DNA from: Gymnopilus junonius
Lineage: Eukaryota > Basidiomycota > Agaricomycetes > Agaricales > Galerinaceae
Direction of reading: 5' to 3'
DNA: 64,000 nucleotides
NCBI GenBank assembly: GCA_015501075.1
Contig: JADNYJ010000168.1
Coordinates: 18,029-82,028, forward strand
The notes under the pieces were generated by a model. That model had not been told where the DNA came from. It made no database searches and saw only the letters and a program-made list of their open reading frames with translations. This document shows, piece by piece, positions 6,661 to 45,333 of this stretch (position 1 is the stretch's first letter; each line of letters begins with the position of its first letter). The position numbers were made by a program, and so were the translations under genes.

Positions 6661-6666
6661 AAAGCA

Positions 6667-10081: not shown

Positions 10082-10104
10082 CAGGAATATACTATAATTA
10101 TGCG

Positions 10105-10420
10105 CAAAGGCAGTAATGGAGCCTAGAAATAAATTCATCCCATTATATATTTGCCTCACTCACCTTGAGTGAAATTTGCGTCGTGACAATGATATCAGGA
10201 AGTCAGCCGTCAAGAAAAAAGGAACAGACAGTGCCAGAAGTGCATTCCAATCCCGCCCGAATGTAGCACATACTCTAAACTCTAATCCGCAATGGCCCGT
10301 TAGACTCGAGCATGACGCCCTACTTCTACTCATAGTTCCCTCCTGCCAATCGCCTTGATAATCTGCTCGCACACCGTAAAGACGATTCCACCGCTTTGCC
10401 TGTTGATGCCAATGCCATTG
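10105..10420. repeat. Copy of the citrate-carrier 3' end, direct repeat of 12115-12460
   Basis: This segment repeats the last exon and downstream flank of the citrate carrier gene at 12361-12429. On the minus strand it reads SGGIVFTVCEQIIKAIG followed by a stop, against SGGIVFTVYEQIIKAIGGREA in the intact gene. Flanks also match (gattatgcgcaa..ggcagtaatgga against gattatgcgcaa..ggcggcaatgga). A third copy sits in arm B near 46500-46800. It is a gene fragment with no upstream exons, so not functional as a carrier. Confidence 0.75.
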
Positions 10421-10448
10421 AAGGAAGCCAATTGTCTCCACAAGATAT

Positions 10449-11588: not shown

Positions 11589-12360
11589 GGCAAATTCTGA
11601 ATTGGCTGGTACTGTTCAACTGCGCCCGTGGCTTTGAGAAATGCGAGCGCGAGGTTGAAGGCGTGGGAAGTCGATTGTGGGAAGGAATATGCTTGACAAC
11701 AATGGGTTTTACCTGTTGGTGACCAGGAAGAGACGACACGAAGGCAATTGCCGCTTTCCTAGGGGACAGAGAACCCAGGAAGGAGGCTGGCGGGCGGCAA
11801 CATAGCCTCAAGGCGAAACACTGCAAAGAGTTCGTTGCTAGCAGTTTTACGTACTTTAAGGCAGTGCTATTTGGGGGATTGGAACCCCCCCTGAAATGCG
11901 GCCGCAGGTTCGATCCGGGCACCTCCTGATTCCTAAAGTTTTCACCTTGAGTTGAAGATTACTGCTTTGCTTCTAAAGAAGATCCAAAAAATCTGAGCTA
12001 ACCAGTCGACTCCAGATCTGAAGAGAAATGAACCGGTGCAGCTAAATTTTCGAGATCCGACTTCCAGATGACGGTTAGAGTTTCAGTAATTTCAGTACTA
12101 GTAGCAGTGATTATGCGCAAGGGCGGCAATGGATATTAGAAATAGACCCACTCCGACTTTGCTCGCCTTGGCTTACCTCGAATGGGATTTGCACATTGTA
12201 TCATGGGTAATTATTCATCATTTCAAGCCCAAGACAATCGGAACGAATAGTAAGTATCAGAAGTGCATTCCAATCCCCGCCCGAATGTAGCACATACTCT
12301 AGAACTCTAATCCGCAATTTCCTAATACTATTAGACTTGAGTACACCGCCCTACTTTTAC

Positions 12361-18834: not shown

Positions 18835-19549
18835 ATAATTTATCTGTTCCTATAAATTGGAAATCAAAATGAAAACTGAAGTGTGAATGTTAATGCAGTG
18901 TGCACATTTGAGAAAAAAAGGTCTTATACTGATAATTTCAAGGTGATACATGTATTATTTGTGGGTGATGGGGCAGAAAAATTTGCATAAAATGCATTTT
19001 GTTTCGCCATCCCACCCTGACACTCCATACAGATGCATCTCTCACTGCTGGCAATAGGTTATTTAAGTTGACCAAAATGATTAATAAAATAAATTAAACA
19101 TGTTTGCATTTTTTCGACCATGTTGCCCAATCGTAAAACATATCTAAAACCCTTTATTGTTGATGTCAACAAATACCTGAAAGAGGAAACATTTGTGTTC
19201 AAATTTTAGCAACTAACAAACTTCACATTTAAGTACGATTTTAACTCTGTACGGAATTGACTGACATGTTCAGTTTTTTTCATTGTCTCGTGCAACAATT
19301 AAAGAATTTTTTTGAGTGAAAAATTTCTTAATATATCTTAGATTTTATGAAAGATTTATCAAACATTGGAAATGATTTATTTCAGAAGATTTTATAAAGC
19401 AAATAATTGAACAAAAACGAAGGATTGACAAGAAGCAACAATAAATCGCGCACTGAGGTCCTCACTGATGGGAGCGATAAGCAGGTATGGGTGCACATCA
19501 GCAGCAGGTTAACAAGAAAACATACAGACCTGGAGATATATACAATTAT

Positions 19550-22228
19550 GTCATGTGAAAAGAGCAGCTGAGTCCACATTGAGATGAGTGATTGCTTTTC
19601 GCCAGGAGGATGCACCCCTAAGACTGTTTTGCCAGAACTCTGGGGTCTCAGGCTGAGCATTACCTTTTTCAAGCTCAGACAGATGGCTTTGATACCAAAC
19701 TTCATCCCATTCTGTCCAGTGTCCAAAATTGTAGCCATTTGCTTTCTGATTTTTCCATTGAGCAGGCTTCGGCCACCAAGACTTGTGAACTACTTGGTTA
19801 GGCGCACTTCCTGAAGATCATGTGGGAATCAATTAAATTATCAGAATAGGAATAACAAACCTGTATAGCACATATGAAACCCACAAATGACATCCATCTC
19901 TTCCTCGGTAAGCATATCATCCCAATAGACTGTTTTATCATCAGCCATGAAGTGGCAACCAAGGTGATGTTCAGTGACTGCAGATGATGGGCCAAAGCAG
20001 GCAGAATCAATACCAATGTGTTCCTTCGCAAGGTGGCTAAGGAGACCACCAGTAAGCAGTGCAGCTCGCCCACGTGAAGATGACAGGAGTCAGTGGCAGT
20101 GCTGTATATAGACATCATAGTCGCTCTTGTTGAAAATATACCCCGAAGCATGGATGGGCACAAGATTTCAGTGTGCTTGGAGTCTGATGGAAGGTTGATG
20201 TTGAAGTGGTAGTAATGTAAAGAATGTCATGCCCATTTCCAAGAGGCAGTGGGTGAGTGACATTGAAGAATGTTTTCCAGGACTGACCACAAGGCGGAAC
20301 ACCTTAACTGCGTCTGTAGCAGTTGTCAAAGCAATCGTCCATGGAGCCTGAGGATCAAGTGCAAGGCAGCTTTCCTGAAGAAGGAAAAGGTTGCCAACCT
20401 TCTGGAAGAGAAGCCTCAGAGCTGCAATGTTGAGAGCAATGGGACACTGATGTTTGAGGTCATATATAACAGGCGGTGGACCATTGGTCATTTGGAGACC
20501 CTGAAGAAAGTCAAAACATGACAGGCCAAAGTCTACCAGTGGAGGGTTAGAATCCTTGGCACAAGCCCTACAGTCTTGACAAGATCATTCCACCTTGCCT
20601 TGTCAGGCATAGAGGGGTTTGGAGGAATGGCTATGGGGGGTCGGTAGCCATAGTGAGTGGAAAGATATGCAACAATGTCCACCACTTGGGAAGGAATAAG
20701 GTTCAGTCCATTTTCGTTGTCGCTCAACAGAGGCGCAGGTAATGGAATGACACCTGCATACACTTCGACATGTCGAGCAACAAATTCCTCAGCTTTTTTC
20801 TGCTGAGAATCGGGAGAGTCATCACAAGAATGGGAGGTAGACGAATAGTTTCCGAAGTCAGGGCCAAAGTTGCCATCACTGTCATCATCATCGTTGCTGA
20901 TGCAATCTGGGTCTCCAGGAGTCGCAAAGTATTCACAGAGGTCCCATTCATTCTGGAAAGAGTCATAGCGGGCTTGGGACCCCCTATAAAAAGCAAGATT
21001 GTCTTCGCGTTCCTTTTTGTGCACTCTAGTGGTACAAGGCACATGTCCTCTTCGATGCTCCAATCCCAAACAAAAACTTCTGCAGAAATGGTAGGGTTTT
21101 TCCTTTCTCAACTCAGAGCGCTTCCCTATCCTGCGGCATCTCATTCGCAAGCATTCAATCATTAATGATTTTTCGAGCAGTGAAAAAGGGTTCCCATGGC
21201 TTGGAGGCAATATATGCTTCCCAGGCCTTCTCAAACTCCAATTCTGGAAGAATACTGGACTCAGAGTGGTGAGGAAGGTTGGGTGAAGACAGCAGTTGCT
21301 GCTCTAAGGTGGTAGGGGGCATTGATGGTGGAGATGGGGACCTGTAAATTAAGGTCGTCACATTCTGAAGGTGCTCTGGAGGGGGTTGGATATATGTGAA
21401 AGCGCGGCACCAAGTCTGGCCTTGCTCGACTTCTGACCAGTGGTACCACACAGGTACGTTCTAAACACATAGCCATTTCACTAGGTCAGCACCTTCACCA
21501 CCTTTGTTGGTGAGATCAATGAAGGACCCAGTGTGATGGGTCTGTCTCCAAAATGTGCTCATTATGATATCATAAAGTCTGCTGAGCCACAACTGATCTA
21601 CCTCCTTTTCAGAAGCAAGGAAATTGAACCAGTCTGGGACCTGTAGGGGATCGGGTTCTCCTTCAATGCAGGCAATATAGAACGATAGTAGGCCGATCCA
21701 CACAATGAACCAATCGTGTGCATGGCCAATTCGATAGCGTGCACCACGAGCACTAAAAAACACTTGGTCGAAACCAAGGAGAGAGGGGGGAGGGGGGAGG
21801 AAATATGGTTTGAGCCGAAGAAAGAATTTTTCCCTCAAGATGTGGAGGATAACAATTAAGATGTCTTCCAGATAGCACCATGCTGAGGACTTTGATTGTT
21901 GGAGCTGGTACCCCGTGCCCCAAGGTGTGTCAACTTCGTCAATATTGTTAAGGTAGTCGCAGAGATGGCCAAATGCATATCCTTCGAATGAGGGGACACT
22001 GGGGGTAAAGCTCAGGAATCCAAATGCATCAGTCCACCATTCAGGAGTTTGATGCCACCTGAGAGATGCGGCTCCAACAGCAAATGGATATGAGGGATTC
22101 TGGTTTGGGACAGCAACAGAGCGTGAACAGTTGGGCGAGTAATAGATATCGCCATCACTGATGAAGGCCCTGCCTCGAGAATGGTCTAGAGGTGGGGTTT
22201 GTTGAGGCATATGGTCTTCAATATTCAA
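19550..22228 (-). pseudogene. Decayed member of an agaric multicopy gene family, function unknown
   Basis: A long coding relic read in several frames. Early part: FDQVFFSARGARYRIGHAHD and DWFNFLASEKEVDQLWLSRL. Then, after an in-frame TAG at 21461-21463 (LCV*NVPVWYHWSEVEQGQ), IQPPPEHLQNVTTL and FEKAWEAYIASKPWEPFF. Later SQARYDSFQNEWDLCEYF followed by an acidic patch, VVDIVAYLSTHYGYRP, PPPVIYDLKHQCP and, near 19680-19750, the coding-looking stretch WWPKPAQWKNQKANGY and NFGHWTEWDEVWYQSHL. The overall pattern matches large hypothetical proteins repeated many times in agaric genomes. That is recall of a pattern, not a search result. Frameshifts near 21160 and 21050 also interrupt it. Confidence 0.55.
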
Positions 22229-22384
22229 GATCAGGTTTGGTATGGGGGCCTATTTCAAAAAGTACTCACAAAGTTGACGTTAGGCCATCTTCAAGCTTGA
22301 TGCAATCAAGCGCCGCTGGGCAAGTCACGAACTGAGGGACAAATCACTGCCTAAGGAATGTTAATGAGTTGAAGTTAAGTAGCA

Positions 22385-22473
22385 TGATCTGGACACCCAG
22401 ATCACAACCAAAAGTTTAAAGAGGGTAGATAAGTTCAACTGAGATAGTGTGTTCTGGACACCCAGAACACACT
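22385..22473. repeat. Covarying hairpins H1 and H2 (loop ACAC)
   Basis: H1 (22385-22404): arm TGATCTGG, loop ACAC, arm CCAGATCA, 8 perfect pairs. H2 (22446-22473): arm AGTGTGTTCTGG, loop ACAC, arm CCAGAACACACT, 12 perfect pairs. The two share only the inner CTGG/CCAG and the loop. They lie upstream of the decayed minus-strand gene. Confidence 0.85.
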
Positions 22474-22642
22474 TTGATGATGGAGGTAGGAGTTTGAGAG
22501 AAAACAATAAACAACACATTCATTCGGCTTGGAGCCCCTAACCAAACAATAAACAATGCATTCATTTGGCTTGGAGCCCCTAACCAAACAATCATGTGCT
22601 CAATGATGATAACCACTTTCAGCATCTCCCTCAATCTCTTCT

Positions 22643-22930
22643 AGAGTGTCCTGGGTGTCCAGGACACTCTGCCACATCTTCAGCCCTTCAACTCAAGCAT
22701 GACTTTTCTCAGAGTGTCCTGGGTGCCCAGGACACGCTGCCTCAGATGGTCTCTGCCGTTCAATTCATGTCATTGCCATTGTGGTTGCAACATGCTCTTC
22801 AATTGACTGCTAGGTATGTACTCTTTCCTCAGCCTATTGTCACCCTCTAATTGTCTTTAATGACGGTTGGTAGGTGCTTCTACTCAAACACGGCCTTCTT
22901 CACGGCGTCTTTGGCATCCAGGATACTCTG
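22643..22930. repeat. Covarying hairpins H3, H4 and decayed H5 (loop GTGT/GTGC)
   Basis: H3 (22643-22670): arm AGAGTGTCCTGG, loop GTGT, arm CCAGGACACTCT, 12 perfect pairs. H4 (22710-22739): same arms with one mismatch (CCAGGACACGCT) plus one extra outer pair, loop GTGC. H5 (about 22903-22930) is a worn relative around TTGGCATCCAGG. The loop GTGT is the reverse complement of ACAC in H1/H2, so these lie in the opposite orientation. Confidence 0.8.
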
Positions 22931-23043
22931 CCTCAGTCCATAGTATCTGGCCTTGGCCCTTTACTCCTTGCTGTTACTATCATGGTCGATCAACAATTCA
23001 AATTTTCTCTAGGTATATACATTTTTTCTGCCTACATCACTAT

Positions 23044-26025
23044 CTAATTGTCTGTCATGATGGTTGGTAAAGTTATTGCGGGTTTCACTTGAAGATCGAC
23101 TTTAGTGCTGTCGCTCAGGCCAGCATACCAAGTAGCATCATAGAAGTTCGCAGGCAATCCTGGGATCGCCCTCGAATGGCTAATGAGCCCCCCCATCCTC
23201 ATATGCTGCCTAGCTGGATTCCCTGGTATAGGGTTGCCAAGCCCATTCTTCTTGTTCGTATCATGGTCGATAATTTCCAGGTATGGAATCAATGCAGCAC
23301 TGCACCATTGTCAGATCCTGATTGTGTATTTGCGTTCTTCAAGTCCACTCTCATTGGAAGACATCCCCTCCGGGGTCAGCATGCTAGCCACTTGGTACAA
23401 GGACTCCCAAGCAGGGTCCTTTCCCCCCTTCTGATTGTCCTTGGCAGTATTGACTCGATCATTCACCAACTACGATTGCATAAGTCCTCTGAAATGTAGA
23501 AGATCAAAAAGTAAACCCACCCCACGGTGTCATGTGTCTTGGCGCGTCATCTTGTTCTTGCTTGCATCCTTCTTTTCCACCCATTCGCGAGTTTGCACCT
23601 CATCTTCTCCCTCTTTCAGTTTCGCTTCCTTCACCAGTGCCTTGAGGGTCATGAAATGTTGTTTAACAGTGGAGTAAGCGATTAGTCTGTTCTCAGGCTG
23701 AATGTTATGCATCAACAAGAAGGACTGCATGAACTGGTTGGCCAACTCCTCATTCCACAGATGGCTGTACTTGACTTCAAAGCAGAAACTCATTGGAGCC
23801 AGGCTTGGACGAATGACTGGATTGTCGTCAATTGCATATTTTTCGATGACACTGAGAAGCGGCAATTCGACACCTCAGATCATCTTATCCTTCTTGATTC
23901 CAATAAGTGGATTCATGTGGAGCCAAACTGCTTTCTAAATGAATGTTTATGGTGCATTAGCCCACGTTAAGTTTCAAATAAGCCCATGAACTTACTCCAA
24001 TTATCTTAGATTGAGCATTACATGTTTTTGAAGCTGGTTGCTTCACAAGTGCTGAAGTGTGTCTCCATAGTTTGGCTGGTGTGCTTGGCAATGCACCTGT
24101 GTTCACTAAGACAGAAAGTACTGTCTTCATAATTGCCTCAACTTGCGCAATGTTGACATTCCTGCTAGGAATCTGTCCTCCAAGACCGTTGAGGGTAGAC
24201 TGGGTGGCAGGCTGCTTATTGTTGTCATATACTACTTTCAGCTGAGGGCCAGCCCCACCCCATGGACGTTTGAAATGATATGGTGGTGGGACACGAGAAG
24301 ACCCTTTGTTGTCCTTTCAAAGCATCAGTATGGTTATGGGGTTAGGAGTGGCAAGCCTCACCTCATCGTCGGAGTCGTTGGATATGACACTGTCGAAGTC
24401 TTCCCCTGAGCTTTCATCGGCAACAGGAGCACAAACTTTGGCTTTGCCTTTAAGAAGGCCACGTGGACTATTGTCCATCACTACATCGTCATTGACCTGC
24501 TGATGCTGGTCAGATGCTAGAAGGGGTTGTGGTGCCACTGTGATATCTTTGGTGCTAGGAGTGGAAGGCAGGCCATTATCTCTAGGAAGGCCCTGTGGGT
24601 TATTGCTCATCTCCACACTCATAGTGTTTTGTTGGTCAATCAATGGGGTGGCAGTAGATACAGCTTGTAGTACCGCGGTGGTGTGCTCTATAACAGGAGC
24701 AGAAGGCCGGTCTTGTGGATGATTGTTCATCTCTATGTCACCCCCTTTCCGCTGATCATGGCTGAATACCTGAGGATAATGTCTGCCACTTGATGGGATG
24801 ACACCCTCTGTAGTAGGAATGGGAGATGGCAGTTCTAGATTGGTCAATGTGAGAGTTTGAGTCTTAAATATCTTGGAATATGAATTCTCAAATACCTGGT
24901 GGTCCATTTACAGCAGTGCACACAGGTTCTTCAAGCTGTCTCTGTTGCCCTTCTAACACGTTCAGCTTCTCCTGGTATTCGTGATTTCGCTTCTCTTGTA
25001 ATCCTTGGCATTCCAGATGTTCCCTCTCGAGCTGTGCTTCTGTCACTTTCAACCTGTTGACATTTTCCTCGTTTACCCGATGTTCATGAATTCGCTTCTC
25101 CTCTATCTCCTTGCATTCCTTGCGTTCCCTATCGAGCTGTACTTCTGTCATTTTCAACTTAGCGGCATGATCTTGGTTTGTCACCTCCAAGGCTAATAAT
25201 CGCTCCAAGACCGCATTGACCTTGTCCTGATGTTTGTTCATCTGTCATATGGTAAGTCTGGTATAGTCATTGAGCAATAGTTTAACTACTCACTTGCTCC
25301 TTCATCTGCTCAATTTGTTTGTCCTTCATCTCCAGCATCTGTCTCATGGTAAAATCACTTTGCTCAATGACTCGTGTTTTGGCCTATCACAGAGGTGAGC
25401 TTCATTAATCCAACAAGAATGGTCGACTTACGTATTCCATGTCTTGTAGATCAATCATAGATTTGTTGTGGTGCCGCTTGGTTAGCGTGTCCACTGGAAC
25501 TTCCTTGTCAGGTCTGAGCTGCCTTCAGATTGATATCACTTGCTTTGTCGCTTTTGGTTTAAACGTGAATCCAAATGGCTTAGGTAGCTGAGCTTCCTGG
25601 TCAGGTAGCCCTTGTGGCTCGGTGTTTTCATGAGGGCTGTCATCCAGTTGCTGTTGTGGAAGCGGCAGGTGCATATTGGAATTTTGCGAAACAGTTTCGA
25701 TATCCAGGAGAGGGTCTAGTTGACTCGGGGTTACATCGAGGTTCATGTCATTCAGATGCTGTAACACCTGTTGTTGCTCACTTCATGATGCGATGAATGC
25801 CTCCTGATCTAGCATAGACTGGTTTGGGTTGGTGGCCATACTTTCATTGACGGCCATGGCAGTTTCCATAGGCTCTCCAAGTGGAAACACGCCTGTGATA
25901 GCCTGGCTTATTCCAGTGCTGGAGGGTCCTGATGGCCTTGGATCCATGACAAAGGGAATGGCACTTGAAACAGCTCTAAAGGATGGGTAGTCACAGGTAT
26001 ACTTTGGAGCTTTGTTGCATGGCAC
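23044..26025 (-). pseudogene. Coiled-coil protein of an agaric multicopy family, interrupted
   Basis: Minus-strand exons join well. 26025-25783 is followed in the same frame, across a TGA at 25783-25785, by SEQQQVLQHLNDMNLD and FTFKPKATKQ. Then come VPVDTLTKRHHNKSMIDLQD and (donor gtaagt, acceptor gatag) AKTRVIEQSDFTMRQMLEM, KDKQIEQMKEQ and a long charged coiled coil from 25241 to 24890 built on two similar units (LKMTEVQLDRERKECKEIEE and LKVTEAQLEREHLECQGLQE). Downstream: KRPWGGAGPQLKVVYDN, IAQVEAIMKTVLSVLVNTG and SFCFEVKYSHLWNEELANQF. Near 23100 the terminal block is GLPANFYDATWYAGL. The first exon was not found. The pattern resembles hypothetical proteins common in agaric repeat islands. 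Function unknown. Confidence 0.5.
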
Positions 26026-26638
26026 CGGGCCGGTTCAAATAACTAGACAAATGATGAATATGCACTGTGTCAAATTCATCCATTGGAATGTCTGTGTTGG
26101 GTTGAGATTGCATATTGAAGTCGAGAAAGTTAAACATGGCGAATCGCTTGTGGGGTCCTTTTAGGTCAAAGAATTTATTGAAAGTTGTTGATTATTGTCC
26201 AGGGAGTCGATGCGATGCCCATGCAGGTATATACTTATTGAGGATTTTGGAATGTACCTAGTTCACTTCAAACGTGCAGGTATAATAACTAACCTCCATT
26301 CTACTTCATTCGCCAAATTCTGATTTCTATTGACTCAATTATTGTGGCAATTATATTGTGGAGCAGCTCAAAATTTAATACATTGCAATCCCTTTTCTTG
26401 AGCTTTGAAAACTGGCATGCACAATAGCTGAGCTCCATTCACCGGTATTTTCAAACAGGGTCCTCTGCTATGGGTCTCTACTATGGCAACTTTATTGTCA
26501 AGGGCTAGCAATCTAATAAACCCATTTCATTCAAATACAGGCTCACGATGAAACTTCTAAGAGATCTCAAACTCGAAGGTCCAATAACAACTCTTAACAT
26601 CATAACATCTACTCCCTGAAACAGTGACTCATGCTGTC

Positions 26639-27218
26639 ATGCCACACAAGAAGCCTATCCACCAGTCTCCAAAAGTAAGTACAACAACAGAGTGTCAATA
26701 CCATCATAACTCACAGTTATTAGGCAAAACATTATGCCTATACCGGCTGCCTTTTCTGTTACGACATTGAAAAACCATTTTTCTCTCCTTTCATTGCTTG
26801 GGATGACAACAGGACCTCACTGCTTCGACAAACACATCAGATTTTCAAAGATCGAGTTGTAAATGCCAAGATCTACAACTTCACCATCTATCTCTGGGAA
26901 GGCTGCAAATCTCATCCCTTCCAGATATCATGTAAGAAACCAGTGATCGGGTTGGAGAGGAATGCAGTGCTGAGAAAGCTAGGGGTGCAGTGGAGGGGCA
27001 ACCTCTATGTCTTGCGGATTGGAAAGCGTAATCCTCTGTATCCTGTTGACATGCGAGGTAAGGATGCCAAATGGGTATCTCATGCAGTTAAAAAGTAAGC
27101 ACTGGCATTATTTACTACATTTTTGAAGGCTTACCAGCTGCGGTCCAGGTTTCTTGCAGAGGTTGAACAAGCTTTGCTTGAAGATGCACCAACAGAATTC
27201 CATTTCCGCAGATGGTGA
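26639..27218 (+). CDS. Uncharacterised small protein, intact three-exon gene (158 aa)
   Basis: ATG 26639 and exons 26639-26674, 26724-27094 and 27149-27218 (introns gtaagt..ttag and gtaagc..ccag) give an open frame of 158 aa ending at TGA 27216-27218. Visible pieces: MPHKKPIHQSPK, HYAYTGCLFCYDI, AWDDNRTSLLRQTHQIFKD, FTIYLWEGCKSHPFQISC, WRGNLYVLRIGKRNP, YPVDMRGKDAKWVSHAVKKF and APTEFHFRRW. No signal peptide or obvious fold signature. The pattern fits a lineage-specific agaric family often found near transposons, which is recall and not a search. It is unusual here because every neighbour is broken while this gene splices cleanly. Confidence 0.6.
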
Positions 27219-27368
27219 TGGATGGGATGTTTCGATGACTTGCAGACCTTGATGGTCACTTTAGTAGCTTTCTTATATCAATATCCTAGCATGCAATCAG
27301 AGTTTGAGAAAAAAGACAATAATTCAAGCAATAGGAAGCAGACAGAGGACTTGAATCCGAGAGATCGA

Positions 27369-27616
27369 TCCTCTGGACACCCAGAGGACAAGCGTAGAAA
27401 CCAATGCCTGCATTTGAGTCTTGAGAATGTCTGGACGGTGAGCGTGTTGGTATTTGGTTATGAAGAGAGAACCAAACATGCACAACGACATGAGTCGAAC
27501 TGATCGATCACTGACAACTACTTGTTATCTCTTGCTCACCACATCAGGTGTGTTCTGGGTGTCCAGACCACACTATTGGTGCTGGGGTTGTACTGTGGGT
27601 GTCCAGGGCACAACCC
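27369..27616. repeat. Covarying hairpins H6, H7 and H8
   Basis: H6 (27369-27388): arm TCCTCTGG, loop ACAC, arm CCAGAGGA, 8 perfect pairs. H7 (27548-27573): arm GTGTGTTCTGG, loop GTGT, arm CCAGACCACAC, 10 of 11 pairs. H8 (27585-27616): outer pairs GGGTTGT/ACAACCC intact and the inner left arm partly decayed (ACTGTGG against CCAGGGC), loop GTGT. H7 and H8 are only 11 bases apart. Confidence 0.75.
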
Positions 27617-27829
27617 AGAGCATGATATTGCAGCTCAACTAATCAGATTTATTATTTCCTCTGCGATCAATGTAGATCTTTGACCCGCATGTCTGTATGC
27701 TAGGTACTCTGGTCCTTGCTTATAGAGGTATGTACCATTATGTAGTGATTATAAATGTGCTAAGATGTTCTATAGAACATATCTGACAGCTATATGTCCT
27801 GGGTATCACTACTTGGAACCTGAAGCCAC

Positions 27830-28616
27830 CTTTATAATCTTTAAAAGTGAGTACCGAAACAATGACTTTACAGTTAAACTTACTTTGTCTATTTTCTTTG
27901 TAGCTGATGCAGTTTTTGCACGACGGGCAGCCTCTGAGGTGTACTTGAGGTGGAGCTTCAACATGTCATGCACCGGCCAGTAATTCTTGTAGTTGTCTAA
28001 GATATGGTACTCCTTCCTGACTTCCTCACAGATTTCCTTCACAAGTTTCTTGTCCTGTTTGCTATAGCTTTTCGATAGGTCCAGGCACTTTTTCTTGGCC
28101 TTTTCGTGTACAAAGTCCTTGTACAATTCAATAAGTAAGTTACGAGATGCATGATCAAACAGGTACTCACTACCACTGTTTCATAGGTTTTTTCACTCCA
28201 TGCCAGCACTTCTTGCAAACTGTAGCCCCCTGACCCAGGATGCCCAGCCTCGCCTTTAGGCTTGGGGATTAGTTTAATGATTTCACCCTCAGATTCTTCG
28301 TCTTCCTCATCTTCAGATTGAGAGTCAGTGGAGTTGACATCCATCTCTTCACTGAATGAAACACTTTTTGGTGTAGGAGCCCTTCCTTGCATTGCATTGT
28401 GCTGGATGGTTTCCGGAGTTGCAAACGATCGCAATGCTGATAAGTGCAAGGAGTCTGGGGTTTCAGAGTGCTCATGAATTGCGGATCACCTCCTTGGCTT
28501 GACAATAAGGGAGGAGAAGTCCATTCTTCATGTGATCTTTGGCCGGTGAGGGAATGACCTTGGTGAGAAGACTGTTCTGCAGGTGATGAGCAGCTTATGT
28601 CGTGCGATGTGTGCAT
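27830..28616 (-). pseudogene. Uncharacterised agaric-type gene with frameshift
   Basis: Two main coding blocks on the minus strand. The first (from about 28616) runs to GGDPQFMST, then needs a one-base shift near 28455 to continue as SLHLSALRSFATPETIQHN, a Ser/Asp/Glu-rich linker (DSQSEDEEDEESEGEI) and KLIPKPKGEAGHPGSGGYSL with EVLAWSEKTYETVV. After an intron at about 28180-28130 comes KKCLDLSKSYSKQDKKLVKE, ICEEVRKEYHILDNYKNYWP and VHDMLKLHLKYTSEAARRAK. Basic, helix-rich C-terminus. Function unknown; possibly a transposon passenger or a lineage-specific gene family. Confidence 0.5.
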
Positions 28617-29079
28617 CCATGGTATGTAGTTTTGGGTTGAGTATCACTTGATTTGTCCCTCATTTATATTTTTCCTAGGCATATTCCATACCTTGTATCC
28701 TTTTTTTTACCCTTACTACCTTGTGGTTCCTAATGACTACATAATCACAGCTTTGCATTCTTCCTTTGCCCCGTTGGTAACTCAATATTACCATTCCCAA
28801 ATGGGGTATGTGTCTAAGCGGGTTAAAGCATTTCAAGCAGTCTGATCGATTGTGTCATCATGGTCATCCAGACAATTAGCTTTACTTTCACAAAAGGCGC
28901 TCCTCACATAAGTATGTTGCATATCAGCATGAACCTCCCAAAATCACTCTCCACCACCTCACATTACTCATGCTCATCACTCTATTGCTCAAAGGCTTCA
29001 AATATTTCTTAAAGGCCACCCCATAGCAATGTGAGTAAATACACCTCTTCTCTTCAAGTGCTATATAACCGAAAATGTA

Positions 29080-30345
29080 GGTTTATGTGAAATATGCAAG
29101 GTTTTCGGGCCTTAAAGGGCCTATAAACTGCTTGTCATTCAATCGTGATGGAGCGCTGCTGGCCAGTGGTGGTAAGATGCCCTCGATCAGATATTGTGAC
29201 ATGTAGACTAATGTAAAGTCCATAGGCGATGACAAAACTGTTCATATTTGGGATGTTTCAACTAAAAAGTGCAAGGAGGTTCTTGAGGACCCTGGTCAAT
29301 GATGGGCCAGGTTACCTGTTTGGTCTGGCTTGGGGGTAAAGTCAAGGAAGATATGCAGCAACTTGCTTTTGGGACAGGGCGCAGCTTCCTTATTATCTTC
29401 TGCCAGAACTGTACTAATGTAAGCAATTATTTTCCATGCTTTGGAAAATGTACTGACCTCCGACACAGACTGCAATGGTAGAGATTGCTACTATGCAAGT
29501 ATTCGCCCCCAGTGATCCTGTTGAGGCAGTAGACTATGATATCCAGACATCACATTTGGCTGTCAGTAGTCACCATGGCAATGTTACCCTCTAAGAGGTG
29601 GGAAGAAATGGTGAGATATTTTCACAGATAATGTGGCAGCAACTTACAAGGACATAGGGACAATGCTACGGTTTTGGGCCTCCAATGTGGAGAGCGACGG
29701 AAATGCCTACATAGCCAGTTCCATCTGCTTTTATGACTCGGGATGTAAACTTTTGATTTTCATCCTCAAAACTGGCGAAATGTGAGAGGACACTTTGAAT
29801 GAAGTGACATTGATACTTATTATTTTTTCAACTTTGGCAGGATTTGTCAAGATGTCAAATCTGGGAAGGAGGACTGGCATAAGGTCTTAAAGTCTGGAGT
29901 GTAAGTATGACCTTCTGAGATCATATTCCAATACCGACCCTCTTATGAAGTGGGCATGCCAGCATCAGCCTGGATGGGCAATTGCTTCTCATAGAAAACC
30001 TTGCGAGGGGATTTGATCTCTACCACCTACCATGCTCATCGCCATCGCATAGCTTTTCCATCCTTACAAACAAAAGATGCATCAAGGACGGTGTTTTTGC
30101 TGAGGGATCATCGGTTGTGGTCTGTGGTAGCAACCACGGTGAAATTTACACATTTTCCTTATCCTCTCTTGAACCGAAACAGGTATTGAAGCAGGGCGGT
30201 AAGAATACTGAAGTACAAACTGTATGCATAAGTGACTGTTTAATCAAAAGGCCTGATATTGACTTGTATTAGACAATATCCAACAAGGATTGCCATCTCA
30301 TAGCCAGCAGTAGTTCACTTGAATGTTCCGATATCATTATATGGG
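29080..30345 (+). pseudogene. Decayed WD40-repeat protein gene
   Basis: Fragments in successive exons show WD40 features: KGPINCLSFNRDGALLASGG, DDKTVHIWDVSTKKCKEVLE (typical GD..VxIWD), GQVTCLVWLGGKVKED, then SISLDGQLLLIENLARGFDL, RCIKDGVFAEGSSVVVCGSN and HGEIYTFSLSSLEPKQVLKQ. Stops and frame changes occur between them (for example TAA at about 29594), so no full product is possible. The arrangement matches the WD40 family that is highly repeated in agaric repeat islands (recall). A separate WD40 scrap lies at 51285-51400. Confidence 0.55.
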
Positions 30346-30838
30346 AAAAGCTGTGAGCTTGCTCTTTAGTATGGAGAACTGTCCTCACATTCACCAGTCT
30401 ATGCGTTCCAGGAAGCAGGCCGACAATGACAAAGGCCACGGAACAATCATTATGGTTCTGAACTTCCTTACGATTCTTACCATTGCATATTGGTCCTCAG
30501 GAGTCTGGCTACCACATACATTGAAGGTCCATACCATAAAATGAGAGCTTTTTTTGGCTAAATATTGAACAAGATGGCCAAAGTGCCTAATCGCTATGAA
30601 TGCCACTGCGATCAGCACAACACACTGCAGGTTCACATCAGCAATGCTGGATATTCAACATGGGATCCAAGCAGTACACAGGTTCATGTTGGCATTACTG
30701 ATGAGGATGATGAAGACGAAGAGATGGATGAGGATGGGGAGTGGAACAGTTGGATAGTTTGGATACACTTTGAAAACTTATGTCAACCAATCATGAATGC
30801 AAATAAATATTGATCTGAGGAAACTAATTGAAGCCAGG

Positions 30839-31295
30839 ATATTATCTGGACACCCAGATAACATTAGTGTACAAAGCGGCTTATATCAAAATGCTGAGAA
30901 GTCGAGAGATCTAGAGCGGGTATGATTACATGCGCTAAATGTGACCAGTAATACAAGCTTTGATCAAGTGATCTGGACTTCGATGTGACATCAAATCTTC
31001 ACTCACAACTGCTCCAACCCACTCCTCGCTCAAGTGCTCAATGTTGTTCTGGGCACCCAGAACAACATTGTACTTTGTGTTGCCTTTGAAACATTGTATG
31101 GGAAGCCTGGGTGTCCAGGCTTCCTTTTTTGTCCCTATTTGTTGAGTGAACTAGGGTTACAAGTATGACAAGGTCTCCATGGTAAGTGTATTATTTATTG
31201 TTCGAGTCAGCGTGATGCTTACTTTAAGAGGCTACAGGACTTCAATATACTTCCCACCTTTCTCTGCCATCCCTTACATGCTCTGGGTGTCCAGA
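30839..31295. repeat. Covarying hairpins H9, H10, H11 and decayed H12
   Basis: H9 (30839-30864): arm ATATTATCTGG, loop ACAC, arm CCAGATAACAT, 10 of 11 pairs, the mismatch being A opposite C. H10 (31039-31070): arm CAATGTTGTTCTGG, loop GCAC, arm CCAGAACAACATTG, 14 perfect pairs. H11 (31101-31124): arm GGAAGCCTGG, loop GTGT, arm CCAGGCTTCC, 10 perfect pairs. H12 (31282-31295): only TCTGG/CCAGA remain, loop GTGT. Confidence 0.8.
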
Positions 31296-31350
31296 ACACA
31301 TTGTGATCCCTCTTGTCCATAGAATGCTTTCTAACTGTCTTGGTTTCTTG

Positions 31351-32650
31351 TCAGTCCTTCAAACACTCAGCTATTGGTGTTTTTTTTGACTGATGATATA
31401 ATCCAGGAAATGCCCACTTGAACATGCACATGTCACCAGCAAAGGCGGGCTTGTTGAAGGTGGAGTAGAGCTGGACATCTGCACTTACAAAATCATCTCT
31501 GCAAGGATCGAGAATTTTTTGCTGCAAAACTTGCCGAAGACTCAAGCGAGTTCTCGACGATGAAATTGAGAAAGTTGGGCAACATTTTGCCTCCCTGGCC
31601 ATCTCTGATTCCATTCCAATCCATCATCAGCTTCAGGTGAATGACTGTGGTTGCAACCTGGGGACAGGGAAGGCAAAATTTCTCTGTGCCACAGTCTTCC
31701 AATCCATGTTCTTCTCGCAACAATTATTTGCAACCTCTCTCCCATTTTGCCAAAATTGAATCGGCCATTGACGTTCTTTCCGTCGATGTGGCCACTGAAC
31801 TCGAGAAACTTTCCACAATTCCACCTGCAGATGCATTTCCATTGAGGCACACCATGCTGAATGTGTCCGCATCCAGACGGATCTCAGCAAAGTTGTGTAC
31901 ACAGCGTTGTCCATTACTGTCATGAAGCATCAAGTCTCAGACAAAGTGGATGATATTGCGAAAAGTTGGAAGTAGGGTTGCTGAAGTTCAGTTCAGTTCA
32001 GTTCTTTGGCAATTTTCCGAACTGAGAACTGAACTTCCCAGTTCAGTTTCAGTTCTCAGTTCAAACTGGTTCAAACTGTTCTGAACTGGCAATGGCCAGA
32101 ACATAAAATTTCCTTTCATCTGAGGCTTTGAAATAGTAGATATACTATAGATATGTCTATCTTCTATCATTGGAATTGCTATATGTACAAAACAGTATAT
32201 TATTTACTGATTTTTCAAGCATTGGGTAGTGTATGTAATCATGTCCTCACACAATAAATAAAATCATTTTAAGAAATTATTTTATGTCATCTAGTGCTTG
32301 GGATTAGTGCTAAGAAGTTCTCTATACATTATGGGAATCTAATGGTAATTTTTTGATGCCAAAATAATCATTTTGAAGGTCAAAATTTGATAATTTTAAC
32401 CACACCCAAGAAACAGTTCAGTTCAGTTCGAATGACTGGCCATAGGCCGAACTGAGAACCAGAACTGCATCCAAACTGCAGTTCAGTTCAGCCAGTTCAG
32501 GTTCAAACTGTCAGTTTGAACTGAACTTTGGCAACCCTAGTTGGAAGAAGCAAAGCTGTCCTGGACCAGCGAAATGAAAATATCCAATTCACGGCAGGAG
32601 ACGAAAACTCTGATATCAAGGTTTCTACAGGTAAGATGAATCACAATTGC
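31351..32650. pseudogene. Decayed coding stretch interrupted by a MITE
   Basis: Both strands carry open, coding-like fragments (plus: AKIESAIDVLSVDVATELEK; minus: GNASAGGIVESFSSSVATS and VIHLKLMMDWNGIRDGQGGK), so the true strand is undecided. The MITE at 31973-32539 splits it: on the plus strand, VDDIAKSWK before the insertion continues as WKKQSCPGPAK after it if one copy of the target duplication is removed. No family recognised. Confidence 0.35.
31973..32539. mobile_element. hAT-type MITE with 8-bp target-site duplication
   Basis: 567 bases bounded by TAGGGTTGCTGAAGTTCAGT at the left and the inverse of TAGGGTTGCCAAAGTTCAGT at the right (two mismatches in about 23). Flanked on both sides by GTTGGAAG (31965-31972 and 32540-32547), an 8-bp duplication as expected for hAT elements. 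Subterminal regions are packed with GAACTGAA/TTCAGTTC units; the centre is AT-rich and non-coding. Confidence 0.85.
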
Positions 32651-32869
32651 ATATGTTAATTAGAGATTTCAATACCGAATATATAGACATTTCTTCAACC
32701 CACTGCTTGCCCATGTTGATCCTATCCTCCAGTTATCCATATTCATTGCCATTGTGTTTCAGACTCTTTTCAGCATTGGTCGAAATGGTACATCTGCTCT
32801 GATGGAAATGCTGCAATATCTAGTAAACTCTCCTTCATGTGAAGCAACCCCGATCTTTCTGCACAAGAC

Positions 32870-35760
32870 CAAAAGGTGCTATCTGACTTTCCGTCCGACC
32901 CTCACTCATTTAAAAACTTGCTCATTTAAAACTCGCTCAACCTGGAAGCTGATGCCATCATCTATGCGGTTTGCCCAAATGACAAGTGTCAAGCCACATA
33001 TGCTGCGAAGTACAAAGATGGGTCCCCTGTTGCTATATACCTTCCACTGTAAAGCTCATCACATGGGCAGATGATGCAAAGAACAGTCCTATGTCCTCAG
33101 GTGATTGAGAAGCATACAATCTACATACCGATAAAACCTTCGTCTACTTCAATCCCTTCACTTGGGTTGGGCGACTTGTTTCACACCCTGGAGTTGAAGC
33201 AGATGCAGATAAATCATGGGATAGGTCTAAGACCCCGCAGGAGTTGCCTGCACAATGCGCGACATTTTCAATGCTGATATTCTCTGCAATTTCAAAGGGC
33301 TGAATGGTGCTCACTTCAGCATGGGCAATGGTGAGGGATGCTATGTCTTCTCTCTATCTATTGATTTCTTCAACCTGCTGGGCAACAAACAAGCAGGTAA
33401 GAAATCTCAATTGGTCTTATCACCCTTGTCTGCCTCAATCTACCCCCAATATTCGCTACAAGCCTGAGAACATGTTTCTCACTGGCGTAATTCTGGACCA
33501 AATGAACCCTTTGTCAGCGATCAACCACTTCCTCAAGCCATTAGTTGATGACTTTCTCAAGTTCTGGGATCCTGGTGTACATTACAGTCAAACTGATGGC
33601 ATCCGGGTGGGCGACTAGTGCGATGTGCCATAGTGTGCTTCATCTGTGACTTACCTGCTGCCCAAAAACTGCAGGCTTTGCATCTATTGCCCATACTCAT
33701 TTTTGTTCAATCTGTCATTGTAATCTCAAAATGCATGGATACGGGAATCTCGATTATACCTCTTGGCATCAGAGAACAATGAAGACTGTCGAAGAACAGC
33801 CAAGCAATTCAGAAGGGCTGGTTCAAGTCCAACAGCTGACAAAATTGTCGCTAGCACTGGCATTCGCTGGTCGCAATCCTTCGTCTTCCATACTTTGACC
33901 TATCATGCTTTGTTGTTGTTGATGCAATGCCAATCTCTTCCTCGGCCTCATCCATGAACATTTTGATACCATCCTTGGGCTATGAGTCCCAAAGCTGAGA
34001 AGGAGCCACCTGTTTTCAATGTCATATCTCTGATTCATGGAAGCAAATGAGCAAGGGCGAATGCGCATCAATGAGATGGATTATCCACTGGCTGGACCAT
34101 CCTATGTGTCAGGATCTTCGGATGGAGGCAGGGATGTCAATGTGGCAGAAGCGATTCTCTTCGCAACACCTCTCAATTTTGCAAGTGGTAGCACTTGAGC
34201 TTGGCTGTAAGCCGATCACAACTGATATAAGTAAGACAAAGAGCCTACCCATGCAGATTATTCTCATGGCATTCTTCACTGGGGTGGGCTTCTTTTCATT
34301 CCTGCTTTGTTGTCCTATCTGCTCATGACTTCTTATTTCCAGCAAATGCATGAAACTGAAACTGAGTATGATCCAGAGGGTCATTTGGCGTCAGGCACCC
34401 AGTGTGGTCATGTTCTTACACAGAAGGAGCAGCAGAGATACATTCTGACATTGAACACCTGGTTCAACCATCATGGTTGACATCTCTGCCAGCCAAACTT
34501 GGTCTAAGCAGTCATGGAAAGCTCAAGCTGACCAATGGTGTGTCCTTGGACAACCCTCCTACCCATTACTTGACTCGCCTTTGGTCCAATTCTGGTGGAC
34601 CCACTGATGAGCTGAGAGGTGCCATCGTATCCTTGAAATCACCCTCCACCTTGTTTCAGCAGTTGCCACTGCCACCTCTCGAGTTACCTCAGTTGTACAT
34701 GCCAAAACTTACCTTGACCACATGCTCGCATACCTTCATGGCTTGAAGGAGTTGTTCCACAATATGCATTCATTCCTAATCAACACATGGCCATTCACCT
34801 CTATGAATACCTTGTATTTTATGGCCCAGTTCATTCCTGGTGGACCTTTCCATTTGAAAGGGTTATCAGCATGCTCCAACGCATCTCGACAAACTACAAA
34901 CCAAGTAGGTGTTGAGTTTGGTTTGTTTGTAAGTATACTAATGAGTTATAGGTGAATATGAGGAAACAATCTCATGTTCGTTTATGTGAGCAAGTAATTT
35001 ACAAAATCTCTTCCATAGAGTTGGAATGCCCGAGGTCATCCAAAATTGTGAGCCCATGCTCAGAAGCCTTATCAACCCACAAGTCCGAAATACCCTTGTG
35101 ACCGACATTCTCAGCCTGTCTCGACATGAAGTCCATGATGATGAAGAGCAGGTAGAGGATTTTACAGCTCGGACAAAGCATCCAGTGATGCCTCTTCCAG
35201 AAGCGCTTCAGGAATGTCTTCTTGCATCATTTGACCAGCCGTTGGGTGCAACTGTCCTGTCACATGTTGTGATTCATGGGTTAACATATTCATCATCCTG
35301 GAAGCATCTCGGCAACTCATCTATATTACTTCATTCTGGTTCTCCGAACAAGTACTTGCCAGCACGCATTGATTATATCACTCAAGTTGACTTTGAAGAT
35401 CATGATGACCCTTGTAATGCAACTTATATTACTGCCCAGAAGTACAAGCTGGCTAATGTGCACACTGATCCATTTACATCTTTCCCTCTCCTTCAAGGAC
35501 AGCTTTGGAGTCAGAAATTGGGAGAGCTAGAGTTGTTCCACCTGAGTGACATTCATTCCCATTTTGCCTACCTACCTTTACAATGGGAAGAAAAGGATCT
35601 GATGGTTATGATAGGTCTGTCCCATGTAAGTTTGCCACCACTTTTACCTGGGTTTTGCTGTAAGCTGATATGTGGCTGTGTAGGAACTTTTGCTGGAAGA
35701 CTGACTCTATGACGTAGGCAAGTGACTCGCTTTTGTGGACCTTGCAGTGACCCCCACAGC
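32870..35760 (+). mobile_element. Tnp2/Plavaka-type (CACTA-like) transposase relic
   Basis: Ordered fragments of a large agaric transposase. First WADDAKNSPMSSGD and FVYFNPFTWVGRLVSHPGVE (about 33060-33200), then NIRYKPENMFLTGVILDQMN and INHFLKPLVDDFLKFWDPGV (33450-33580). The core YFDLSCFVVVDAM follows near 33890-33930; a one-base loss right after DAM (about 33932) precedes NLFLGLIHEHF in the next frame. The C-terminal part is open over 35026-35712 (228 aa), including EALQECLLASFDQPLGATVL and ATYITAQKYKLANVHTDPFT. DDE-type cut-and-paste transposases of this group move CACTA-like elements. Many stops make this copy inactive. I did not find its terminal repeats. Confidence 0.65.
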
Positions 35761-35764
35761 GTGC

Positions 35765-36195
35765 GATTTATTTTCTTCTGCCTGAAATATATAGTTTTAG
35801 AAATTATTTTGTGTTACCGGGAAACCTAATGTCAATGTTACATTTTATCTCACATTTAAGACTCAATAAACTTAATGAAAAGGCAAGATTTGTGTTGCAT
35901 TTGTGTTTCCCTGAAATGTCTCTTTTTTTATGTCCATAATTTTATTCACAAAGGACACATTTTTCGAATGATTCTGAAGCTTATAAATCCCACTCAAACT
36001 CTTAAATCTTAACTTGAATGAATGCATTAGAAATGAAACCATTGTTAGCAAATTTTTCATATTGAAAATGTTGAATTTAAAATAGGTTTTATATGTCAAT
36101 AAGCAGGTCAAAAATGCAAACATGTTTAATAAATTCTCTCAATCATTTTTTGTTGACTTAAATAACCCTGTGCCAGCAGTGTCTGGAGGCCATTG
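35765..36195. other. AT-rich non-coding sequence
   Basis: No gene seen. AT-rich, with short Leu/Phe/Ile-rich frames only. Probably the 3' flank of the transposase relic. Confidence 0.35.
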
Positions 36196-39413: not shown

Positions 39414-42400
39414 TGAGCAATACTAGAGGCTAGTTTTAGGAGCCTGGATCATACCTACTATCTAAGGTAAGTATTCAATCTCTGACTGAATGTCAGATAC
39501 TCGGGTTGTCTGCCTACACCCCAACACTCCCCCTCAAGCCAAGGAGTCCGATAATCTGAGTTCGGCAACATGCTGAATGAACTTGGGCCTCTGTAAAGGC
39601 TTAGTAAATATGTCTGCCATTTGTTGAGGATCTCAGCAGTCCTTTATACACACTGATTCTTCTTTGACTCTCTCTCTAACCCAATGCCATCTTATATCTA
39701 TATGTTTACCCCTCTTATGAAACTGGGGATTTTTAGCCATAGCAATAGAACCGTCATTATCTCCCAGAATGAGAGTCAGTTCTTTCTGCTCAAAGCCTAT
39801 TTCTTCATATAAAGCATGGAGCCACATGGCTTCCCTAGATGCTTCAGATAATGCCACATATTCAGCTTCTGTGGAGGAAAGCGCGATCATGGACTGCTTC
39901 TTTGATCCCCATGTAATCCTCCTCCATGAGATAGGAACATGTACCCAGAAATAGATTTCCTGTCATCGGCATTTGCAAAGCCGGTGTCTGAGTACCCAAA
40001 GGCTAGATTGTTCCTCTGAAATTTGTGAGGTTTAGTTGTATAAGTGATACCATAATTCTTGGTCCCAGCTAAGTATCTGAGGACCCTCTTAGCCACCGTA
40101 TAATGAGCCATGCTCAGATTTGCTGTAAAGGCAGCCAATCTATTTATGGCATAAGCTATACCAGGCCTTGTGGCAGTTGCCAGATATTGAAGGGAACTGA
40201 TTAATGATGCATAAGAATTGCTTCTATTTCTGTCTGATCCTTTGGGGTTCAGTTTGAGCACTATATTTGGATCCAATGGTGTAGAAACTGGATTACACTT
40301 CTCCATACCCTTACGGCATAGAATAGTTTCAATATATTGCCTTTGTGAGATGGTAATGGAGTCCGGGGTTTGAGTAATCTCAATACCAACTATCTTTGTT
40401 GGTTCCCCAAGATCTGTAAGGTCCAATATAGAATTCAATTCACTTTTAAGCTTCTTCATGTGCTCGTCAGAGAGGGTGAACACTAATAGATCATTGACCC
40501 AGACTGTGATAATTTCCAAGTCATTAGTATGACCACTCCCCCTGATATAGGTGCACGGATCACTCCATAGCACTTGAAAGCCTATATTCTTTAATCTGTG
40601 ATCTAGCTCATGGTTCCACTCTTGGCCTGACTGCTTCAAACCATAAATGGTTTTAATCAATCAGCAAACTCTATCAGTGCCATCACTGAAACCTTCGGGC
40701 TGGCGCATAATGACCTGCTCCTTCAGTATTCCATTAAGGTAAGCACCCTTTATGTCCAACTGCTGAATTTTAAACTTCATTACAGGAATGAGGCTAATAT
40801 TGCAGGATTGTCTCTAAGCACACAACTGGAGAGAATGTGTCATTGTAGTCTTGTCTGGGTCTCTGTGTGCATCCTTTAGCCACTAGTCTCACTTTGTACT
40901 TAATTAGTTCCCTTAATTTATTATACTTCTTTGTGAGTACCCATTTATTAGCTATTGGGACTGCATCTGCTGGCCAGTCAGTGAGTTCCCAAGTACCCAT
41001 CTTCTTTAATTGATCCAATTTGGCATTTATGGCTGCTTCCCAATGTTCCCACTCTGGGGACCTCTTTGCCTCATGGATCATCTTTGGCTCATCACCTCGA
41101 GGGGAACTTCTGTGATCGCGTTCACAATATCTGATGATGTGAGTATGGCCTCATTCATCTCATCAGGGAACAGATCATGTAATCTTGCATAATCTACTCT
41201 GCTCCATGGTCTTAGCACTCTGGGCTCACTATTCCCAGAATCTTCTTCCAGATCATCCAGCTTCTTTCATTTCCTCTGACTAGGCTCATCAGTTATCTCT
41301 GGTGGCCTATTCTCTGCCAACAGATCTGTGCTCAATTTTGGCATGTTCACCTCCTGCTCCCCCTCAGGCCATACATCGGGCACCTCTATGCCAATTGATT
41401 CCATGGGGGCTGGGTGGTCAGGAAGTGTCAGGAAATGGAAGTTCCTTGATTTCAATATATTTTGACTCTGAGCACTGTAATACAATACCAATTTTGACCC
41501 ATCATTGAATCTGACAAACAAAAACTGTTTTGACTTGGGTCTTAATTTAGATTCTTGATGGGAACCTTGATTGAGTATCCATACAGGCACCCCAAACTCC
41601 TGGAGATAAGAAACATCTGGCCGTTGCCATGTCCACACCTCGAACGGAGTCTTGTTCAGGAGAGCCTTCATATGGGTTTGATTGTGTAAGTATGCTGCAT
41701 GCACCACAGCTAATTCCCAAAGGAATTCCAGGATGCACTGTGCATTCAACATTGCACATGCTAATTCCATGAGCATGCAGTTCATATGTTCTGCAATGCC
41801 ATTCTGCGAGGGGAATATGGTGCTGTCTGCTCAAGGTCTATTCCTTGAGTTCTGCACCAATCTTTAAGATCTGTATTAATAAATTCTCCCCCGCCATCTA
41901 TATGAATAGTGCGGGGTTGCATGCCTTTGACCCTTAATCTTGTAATGTAGTCTTTAATATTTTGCACTGCATCTGACTTTAATTTTAGAAAGCGCACATG
42001 TATGTGCCTGGCATGATTATCCACAAAGCTAATGTAATATTGATTGCCATGGATTGATGCTGTTTGGCACTTGCCCCAGAGATCATATGGGTCAACTCTC
42101 CAGGCCTCATTGTGCGCTGCTGCACCTTCTTCGGAAATGGAGCTATGAATTGCTTTGATTCCATACAAGCTTGGCAGTCCAGCTTTGGTGTTCTATTGTC
42201 CACATGGAAACCATCAACCAGCTGACCTTATATCATATGCTGCAAGCTGCTGTATCCTATGTGGCCAAAACATCTATGCCATACCTCTCAGCTCTGCGCT
42301 GCCTCTACAGCATTATTTACTCATTCTGTAGATGCACATATATTATTTTGCTGTTGTGTGGGTTTTCACATGTGCATCACCATGCGATATAAATGATTAT

Positions 42401-44884: not shown

Positions 44885-45333
44885 CCCTGCACCAGTCCAT
44901 TTCTCTTCAAATCTGAAGTCGACTATTTGCTCAGATTTTCCGGATCCTCTCTAGAAGCAAAGCAATAATCCTCAACTCTAGTGAAAACTGTAGAAATCAG
45001 GAGGTGCCCGGATCGAACCTGCGGCCGCATTTCAGGGGGGGTTCCAATCCCCGAAATAGCACTGCTTTAAAGTACGTAAAACTGCTAGCAACAAACTCTT
45101 GCAATGCTTCGCCTTGAGGCCGTGTTGCTGCCTGCCAGCCTCCTTCCTGGGTTCTCTGTCCCCTAGGAAAGCGACAATTGCCTTCGTGGCATCTCTTCCT
45201 GTTCACCGAGAGATAAAACCCATTGTTGTCAAGCATATTCCTTCCCACAATCGACTTGCCACGCTTTCAACCTCGCGCTCGCATTTCTCAAAGCCACGGG
45301 CGCAGTTGAACAGTACCACATTCAGAATTTGCC

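Follow-up and report, generated by a model that had tools for sequence, protein, structure and literature searches.

How can a family of short hairpins keep the two arms of each member complementary while the arms differ from one member to the next? The question is raised by a 64,000-nucleotide stretch of the agaric Gymnopilus junonius (assembly GCA_015501075.1, contig JADNYJ010000168.1, positions 18,029 to 82,028; the whole stretch is called the window below), in which hairpins with a nearly constant centre are crowded within 9 kb. The original prediction, which described these hairpins, missed that they are components of a 17-kb CACTA-type transposon. They stand in three clusters between the genes of this transposon, their arms covary, and a sister family of elements carries hairpins with a different loop in the same three places. 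We propose that the hairpins may serve as stem-loop sites for a factor encoded by the element itself.

Hairpins inside a CACTA/EnSpm-type transposon

The pattern CTGGNNNNCCAG occurs at 13 sites across the window, ten of which lie inside 22389-31294. Eight of these ten CTGG-N4-CCAG hairpins have perfect stems of 8-14 bp (8, 12, 12, 9, 8, 8, 14 and 10), and the hairpins 27555 and 31283 have five perfect pairs followed by mismatches. An eleventh hairpin, 27595, has one base of the core changed (GTGG..CCAG), and a degenerate trace was judged by eye at 22914; every arm named in the prediction is present. The loop is ACAC in 9 of the 11 hairpins and GCAC in the other two. Read on the ACAC strand, most of the hairpins are similar to AG.GTGTTCTGGACACCCAGAACACA; therefore they probably descend from one common ancestor, with later changes on both arms.

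Both the window and the element hold more of these hairpins than shuffled sequence does. Allowing up to two mismatches, the window has 15 occurrences of the core CTGGGTGTCCAG where 4.37 are expected, and 0 of 100 shuffles have that many; the 17.1-kb element has 11 CTGGN4CCAG, whereas 20 shuffles average 0.45. A hairpin search of the element that was blind to the core gave seven strong hairpins (shuffled mean 0.45), five with the core and two within a later insertion. Throughout the genome (58 Mb, 898 contigs) there are 34 exact cores, compared with 6 matches to a reversed-pattern control; 30 of the 34 are in copies of the element, on five contigs and at fixed spacings, and the remaining four have arms of only 0-2 pairs. 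A covariance model built from the hairpins and run on the window returned 19 rows, all at the 11 known places on one or both strands, and no further hairpin place. The window gave no match to known structured RNA families in an Rfam scan at gathering score, and the 33 single matches from an IMG/VR scan for TTCTGGACACCCAGAA were taken as chance by a rough estimate.

The element that holds the hairpins (Table 1) is here called family I. Whole or partial copies were found by blastn on contigs C235, C238, C490 and C54, with a right-end piece on C5; the longer blastn pieces are 93-96% identical between copies. It is noted that the copies on C490 (~233903) and C238 (~35757) both have no left terminal repeat, and that their left flank is common while their right flanks differ. 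Derivatives of ~645 bp with nearly identical terminal repeats were seen at C92:5440-6095 and, by paired matches, on C129, C57, C35 and C29.

The window copy has CAC..GTG termini within terminal inverted repeats (CACTGCTGGCA..CAGTG), and the two repeats are 83% alike over 72 columns in a self-blast. Target duplications of 3 bp could be read at both ends for the window copy (TCT) and for the C92 derivative (TTA). One exon piece of the transposase matches DUF4218 marginally (E=3e-6, 27.5 bits against a cut-off of 27); with the pieces joined, DUF4218 (25.3 bits) and Transposase_21 (E=0.01) are both below cut-off, and part of the transposase, searched against PDB sequences, gave nothing useful. The CACTG ends, the TCT duplication and the DUF4218/tnp2-like transposase together fit CACTA/EnSpm, and the hairpins are internal parts of one CACTA/EnSpm-type DNA transposon. 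The fungal EnSpm families described by Kojima (2025, PMC12730594) likewise have 5'-CAC..GTG-3' ends and 3-bp target site duplications (TSDs), and share with the present element CACTG..CAGTG ends and a tnp2/DUF4218-like transposase. The subterminal motif arrays that are typical of plant elements are not among the classification features given in the relevant passages of that paper; in the window copy, no short repeat rises above shuffles in the ~600 bp at each end.

Arm pairing within one copy and across two families

A syntenic element on contig C114, recognised by transposase search and tblastx, has exon pieces ~25-70% identical to those of family I and a transposase C-terminus that is 41% identical. 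C270 holds another sister element, which like that of C114 was read whole, and matches to genes and clusters add C32, C52 and C782 as further copies. In this sister family, family II, the hairpin core is TGNGCAACCA, compared with CTGGACACCCAG in family I.

Copying of one hairpin does not by itself explain the arms. Among the 11 hairpins of the window copy, the inner arms pair with their own partners at 67 of 88 positions, compared with 45% for foreign partners, and 0 of 5000 permutations reach this value. The inner arms of the 13 distinct hairpins in C114, with the duplicate hairpin 38700 dropped, give 86 of 104 against 40% (0 of 5000 permutations). The covariation score of family I is 0.38 compared with 0.13 after shuffling (reached in 0 of 500) and is at most 0.19 when the alignment is slid; 10 of 14 pairs have changed on both sides, a number reached by 6 of 500 shuffles, with 7 of the 18 rows being copy variants and thus not independent. 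The corresponding score in C114 is 0.66 against 0.20 (0 of 500; at most 0.19 when slid), and here both sides have changed in 9 of 11 pairs, a count reached by 8 of 500 shuffles. Because pairing with the own partner exceeds pairing with foreign partners inside a single copy, copying alone does not account for arms that differ and still pair. A fixed core with differing, self-paired arms, as predicted, is therefore a property of these hairpins. The alternative named in the prediction, that all copies are parts of one larger repeat, is half right: the repeated transposon explains sameness between copies, but not the differing paired arms within one.

The sites of the sister family are found at the same three intergenic places. 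All 14 matches to TGNGCAACCA in 20 kb of C114, and all 13 in 23 kb of C270, lie within these clusters. Clusters 1 and 2 have five and four sites in C52, and four and four in C32, where a fifth is altered; the cluster 3 stretches of C52 and C32, in which the contig ends first and the alignment fails, have 0 sites. A core-blind search of C114 gave eight hairpins, six with the core and in the clusters. The spacing within cluster 3 is alike in the two families (0/203/261/437 in the window, 0/162/227/437 in C114). By order and spacing, the counterparts there are 30846/35141, 31049/34979, 31107/34914 and 31283/34704, and their arms differ while largely still pairing. Across families the arms are alike at a mean of 7.9 of 20 bases, compared with 5.5 after shuffling (0 of 1000); the best pair, 27555/38877, agrees at 16 of 20 bases, which 12 of 1000 shuffles reach. 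Judged from this likeness, the arms share ancestry across the families while the loop differs. The selection on structure that the prediction offered as one possibility is supported by the own-partner pairing, the counts of covarying pairs and the shared places. Genome-wide, the TGNGCAACCA pattern was found at least 539 times against at least 216 for the reversed control among the places listed, a comparison set aside as a measure of enrichment since CpG, a dinucleotide that is probably depleted here, is part of the reversed control.

Where pairing is lost, the differences were said in the prediction to be often transitions. Between family I copies 73 of 75 variable cluster sites are transitions, but this holds less inside the stems, where the 16 mismatches read on the loop strand are 3 G.T, 7 A.C and 6 other, so that only 10 of 16 are of transition type. 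By eye, many of the transitions in the family I clusters look like CpG decay, as expected from cytosine methylation and deamination. Hairpin units at a period of ~90 bp were also seen at C114:38600-38720 and 43140-43340.

Facing clusters at gene boundaries and their possible role

Draft gene models and tblastx give the order A(-), cluster 1, B(-), C(+), cluster 2, D(-), E(+), cluster 3, G(+). The clusters fill all three internal gene spaces that hold a 3' end; core hairpins are absent between the divergent genes (B|C, D|E) and from both ends of the window copy. The hairpins lie outside the recognised coding pieces, which agrees with the predicted avoidance of coding sequence. They also occur in both orientations, as had been said, and these orientations are ordered, a feature not noticed earlier. 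In all three clusters of both the window and C114, the ACAC or GCAAC strand is on the plus strand for the left hairpins and on the minus strand for the right ones, so that a cluster consists of two groups facing inwards, independent of gene direction. For 31049 the orientation is ambiguous: the loop reads GCAC in the window but GTGC in C490 and C54. Measured from start to start, facing groups in the window are 182-203 bp apart if 31049 is counted right (only 58 for cluster 3 if it is counted left); the distance is 151-177 bp in C114 and 161-197 bp in C270. In 6 of 6 gaps purines are enriched in the left half and pyrimidines in the right half, by differences of 0.10-0.25 compared with a background standard deviation of 0.10 for 170-base windows, and no such asymmetry was found in the two divergent gene spaces. 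In composition, the gaps resemble promoters that point outwards on both sides. The idea that the clusters move independently of the element was considered and rejected. A DNA search with three of the six clusters (family I clusters 1 and 3, family II cluster 1) found them only on contigs with element copies, on at least 4, 4 and 5 contigs.

We propose, with a confidence a little short of even, that the hairpins act in cis as stem-loop sites for a factor which the element encodes, and serve as blocks or insulators at gene boundaries. The three symmetric clusters would mark the internal boundaries A|B, C|D and E|G. The sites would be read in folded form, as RNA or as DNA, through the fixed loop and its closing TG/CA pairs, and the arms would need little beyond complementarity. 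The reader would probably be a protein of the element that co-evolves with the loop sequence; such a shared reader would account for related arms with a family-specific loop. Its job would most likely be a two-sided transcription block or insulator which keeps neighbouring element genes from mutual read-through, and the sites could also damp the promoters of gene A and of the transposase, by analogy with Spm/En, where TNPA on its motif array blocks the polymerase. A two-sided blocking factor fits because the arms mainly pair, the loop is nearly fixed in each family, and the sites flank boundaries irrespective of gene direction. A bolder form is more doubtful: in this eukaryotic DNA transposon, stem-loop arrays would be boundary elements between the genes, read for shape and loop by the transposon's own protein, and loop and reader would have changed together when the families split. 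Each family would then have a code of its own, and the arms would be free to drift provided that they pair. If true, such structure-constrained sites would reveal how a multi-gene transposon insulates its genes, and would provide a natural series of site and reader pairs for studying how a protein recognises a short hairpin.

Several observations weigh against this proposal. Close family I copies vary as much in the arms (10 of 176 sites) as in the flanks (63 of 1236), with 2 of 131 sites variable in the cores; gap columns were dropped from these counts, including that of a base of the 22651 core which C490 has lost. Because the arms vary like the flanks and this core base is gone, the arms bear no mark of recent selection, and the close copies may be dead. 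Conservation among close copies was considered as a test of selection and dropped, there being no arm conservation in family I and too few variable hairpin sites (0-2 per cluster) in family II. The family II hairpins were counted using the core as the pattern, which makes the constancy of their loop partly a matter of construction. The in-stem mismatches do not favour the loop strand as RNA. No binding-protein candidate was recognised among genes A-D, whose tested pieces have no Pfam match above cut-off. In eight stretches with more distant relatives, on seven contigs, 0 of 8 have such arrays; as far as these sequences were read, hairpin arrays are confined to one clade. Finally, the 645-bp C92 derivative, when read, has neither hairpin core, only two unrelated A+T-rich hairpins. 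Since this derivative has evidently moved, the core sites seem dispensable in cis for movement.

The same hairpins might instead act in transcripts, as stem-loops of 3' or 5' untranslated regions (UTRs) with a part in processing, stability or export. We consider this unlikely but serious: ten folded loop-strand hairpins (7 of 11 in the window, 3 of 14 in C114) are stable as RNA, at -8.5 to -22.5 kcal/mol with z of -2.6 to -7.1, genes B, C, D and E end beside hairpins in mRNA sense, and the ACAC strand of 31283 folds better (-14.0 vs -8.7) owing to its G.U pairs. However, the hairpins next to gene A in cluster 1 (both families) and those next to gene G in cluster 3 (C114, C270) are upstream of these genes and in the opposite sense. 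For this reason, and because a putative minus-strand gene at 31.35-31.94 kb has no match in C114, a simple reading as sense hairpins of 3'-UTRs was dropped. Against RNA, mismatches on the loop strand are also more often A.C than G.T (7 vs 3), numbers too few for strand bias to be retained as an argument. It is less probable still, though not far-fetched, that the hairpins are functionless palindromes left by template switching, in which one ancestral hairpin was duplicated and replication slippage copies arm onto arm. The C114 hairpins 38608 and 38700, which stem from a simple tandem duplication of 92 bp that took in both arms and is private to C114 among four aligned copies, are what such an origin would give, as are the inverted match between 22444-22472 and 27548-27576 (96.6% over 29 bp) and the lack of better conservation in the arms than in the flanks of close copies. 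Template switching leaves unexplained why the loop is nearly constant in family I yet different in the sister family, and why both families have the same three places, the inward orientation and a similar spacing. The alternative mechanism suggested in the prediction, the writing of an inverted copy of flanking DNA beside a 12-base core, found no direct support, the sole new hairpin among the aligned copies being the C114 duplication. Hairpin-templated repair is a possible way for arms to stay matched, and if a function is denied, the arrays would be a good natural case of hairpin-templated sequence correction.

The attC sites of integrons, which also fold and lie at gene boundaries, combine variable arms with parts that are constrained. 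A comparable role here, with boundary arrays allowing exchange of gene modules, would suit the conserved centre, the variable paired arms at gene boundaries and the divergent pairs B/C and D/E between the clusters. We regard it as very improbable, because the gene order is identical in family I and C114 and no recombinase or integrase match was found among the exon pieces, part of the exons, that were tested against Pfam; the eukaryotic CACTA context is a further difference. Chance, or plain copying of one repeat, is scarcely credible: the hairpins do sit inside a repeated element, but the shuffle counts, the own-partner pairing within one copy and the positions in the sister family contradict it.

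The closest known likeness to the proposed blocking sites is found in plant CACTA elements. According to PMC2613891, TNPA bound to motif arrays stops the polymerase, and a constant sub-motif is part of the stem-loops that the Tgmt* arrays of soybean form. As described there for Spm/En and Tgmt*, one element contains many short motif copies, direct and inverted, with a motif that varies by subfamily, much as here. In plants the arrays lie no more than a few hundred bases from the ends, whereas those described here are 3.3 kb and 4.9 kb into the element, at gene boundaries. Moreover, every motif here is itself a hairpin with varied, paired arms, and one derivative with neither core has evidently moved. 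The present element also differs from fungal EnSpm in that no TET/JBP gene was recognised in the Pfam-tested pieces, which is not a full test. The word "hairpin" has 0 occurrences in the main text of PMC12730594. A limited literature search, including the consulted parts of that paper, PMC8978399 and PMC2613891, found no internal hairpin arrays in fungal CACTA elements, a weak negative.

Genes of the element and its surroundings

Table 1. Coordinates of the family I element, its hairpin clusters and its genes in the window
Feature	Coordinates	Strand	Basis and remarks
Family I CACTA/EnSpm-type transposon	19043..36181		blastn to copies, ends read; holds all hairpins
Target site duplication TCT, left copy	19040..19042
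Left terminal inverted repeat	19043..19113	+	self-blast with right end; starts CACTGCTGGCA
Gene A, function unknown	19551..22210	-	draft model; pieces conserved in C114 (tblastx); approximate exon borders
Cluster 1	22381..22735		hairpins 22389, 22454 (ACAC strand on +) facing 22651, 22719 (ACAC/GCAC strand on -); 22914 trace
Gene B, function unknown	23047..26134	-	tblastx; 3' end faces cluster 1; approximate borders
Gene C, function unknown	26639..27215	+	draft model, tblastx; 3' end faces cluster 2; approximate borders
Cluster 2	27365..27613		hairpin 27373 (+) facing 27555 and 27595 (-)
Gene D, function unknown	27813..28623	-	tblastx; 3' end faces cluster 2; approximate borders
Gene E, WD40/beta-propeller-like	29072..30544	+	3' end faces cluster 3
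Cluster 3	30840..31300		hairpin 30846 (+); 31049 ambiguous; 31107, 31283 (-)
Gene G body, tnp2/DUF4218-like transposase	32670..35712	+
Right terminal inverted repeat	36110..36181	-	self-blast with left end; ends CAGTG
Target site duplication TCT, right copy	36182..36184

The drafted start of gene A is ~170 bp left of cluster 1. Gene B matches C114 in its C-terminal part and two weak middle pieces only, and gene C is 62.5% identical over 56 aa; a structure prediction of gene C alone was useless (pLDDT 43). Near the 3' end of gene B, more distant relatives share another hairpin (CTCATAAACAATATTTTATGAG, minus strand) at C353:25918-25939, C86:76637-76658 and C417:1187-1208.

In C114 and C270, gene G starts ~100 bp to the right of cluster 3. 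The 31.3-32.6 kb stretch of family I, site of a hAT-like insertion, has no tblastx match on either strand, and by eye its plus strand is like the start of the C270 transposase. Left of cluster 3, a frame at 30574-30813 (MAKVPNRYECHC.., MAKVP.., from 30574) resembles the start of the sister transposase (MVKVPCNC..); it is possibly a first exon or a relic, and cluster 3 of family I may lie within the 5' part of gene G. The insertion itself, at 31975-32537 on the 5' side of the transposase gene, is present in the window copy and absent from C490, C238 and C54. Its ends TAGGGTTGC..GCAACCCTA and the 8-bp duplication GTTGGAAG are those of a hAT-like non-autonomous element.

Elsewhere in the window, 6637-11615 and 45310-48054 hold duplicated genes in opposite orientation, with an open reading frame (ORF) that is short-chain dehydrogenase-like by eye and a 388-aa ORF. 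On the minus strand at 39887-43207, the ORF list shows what by eye are relics of a polyprotein from a copia-type retrotransposon.

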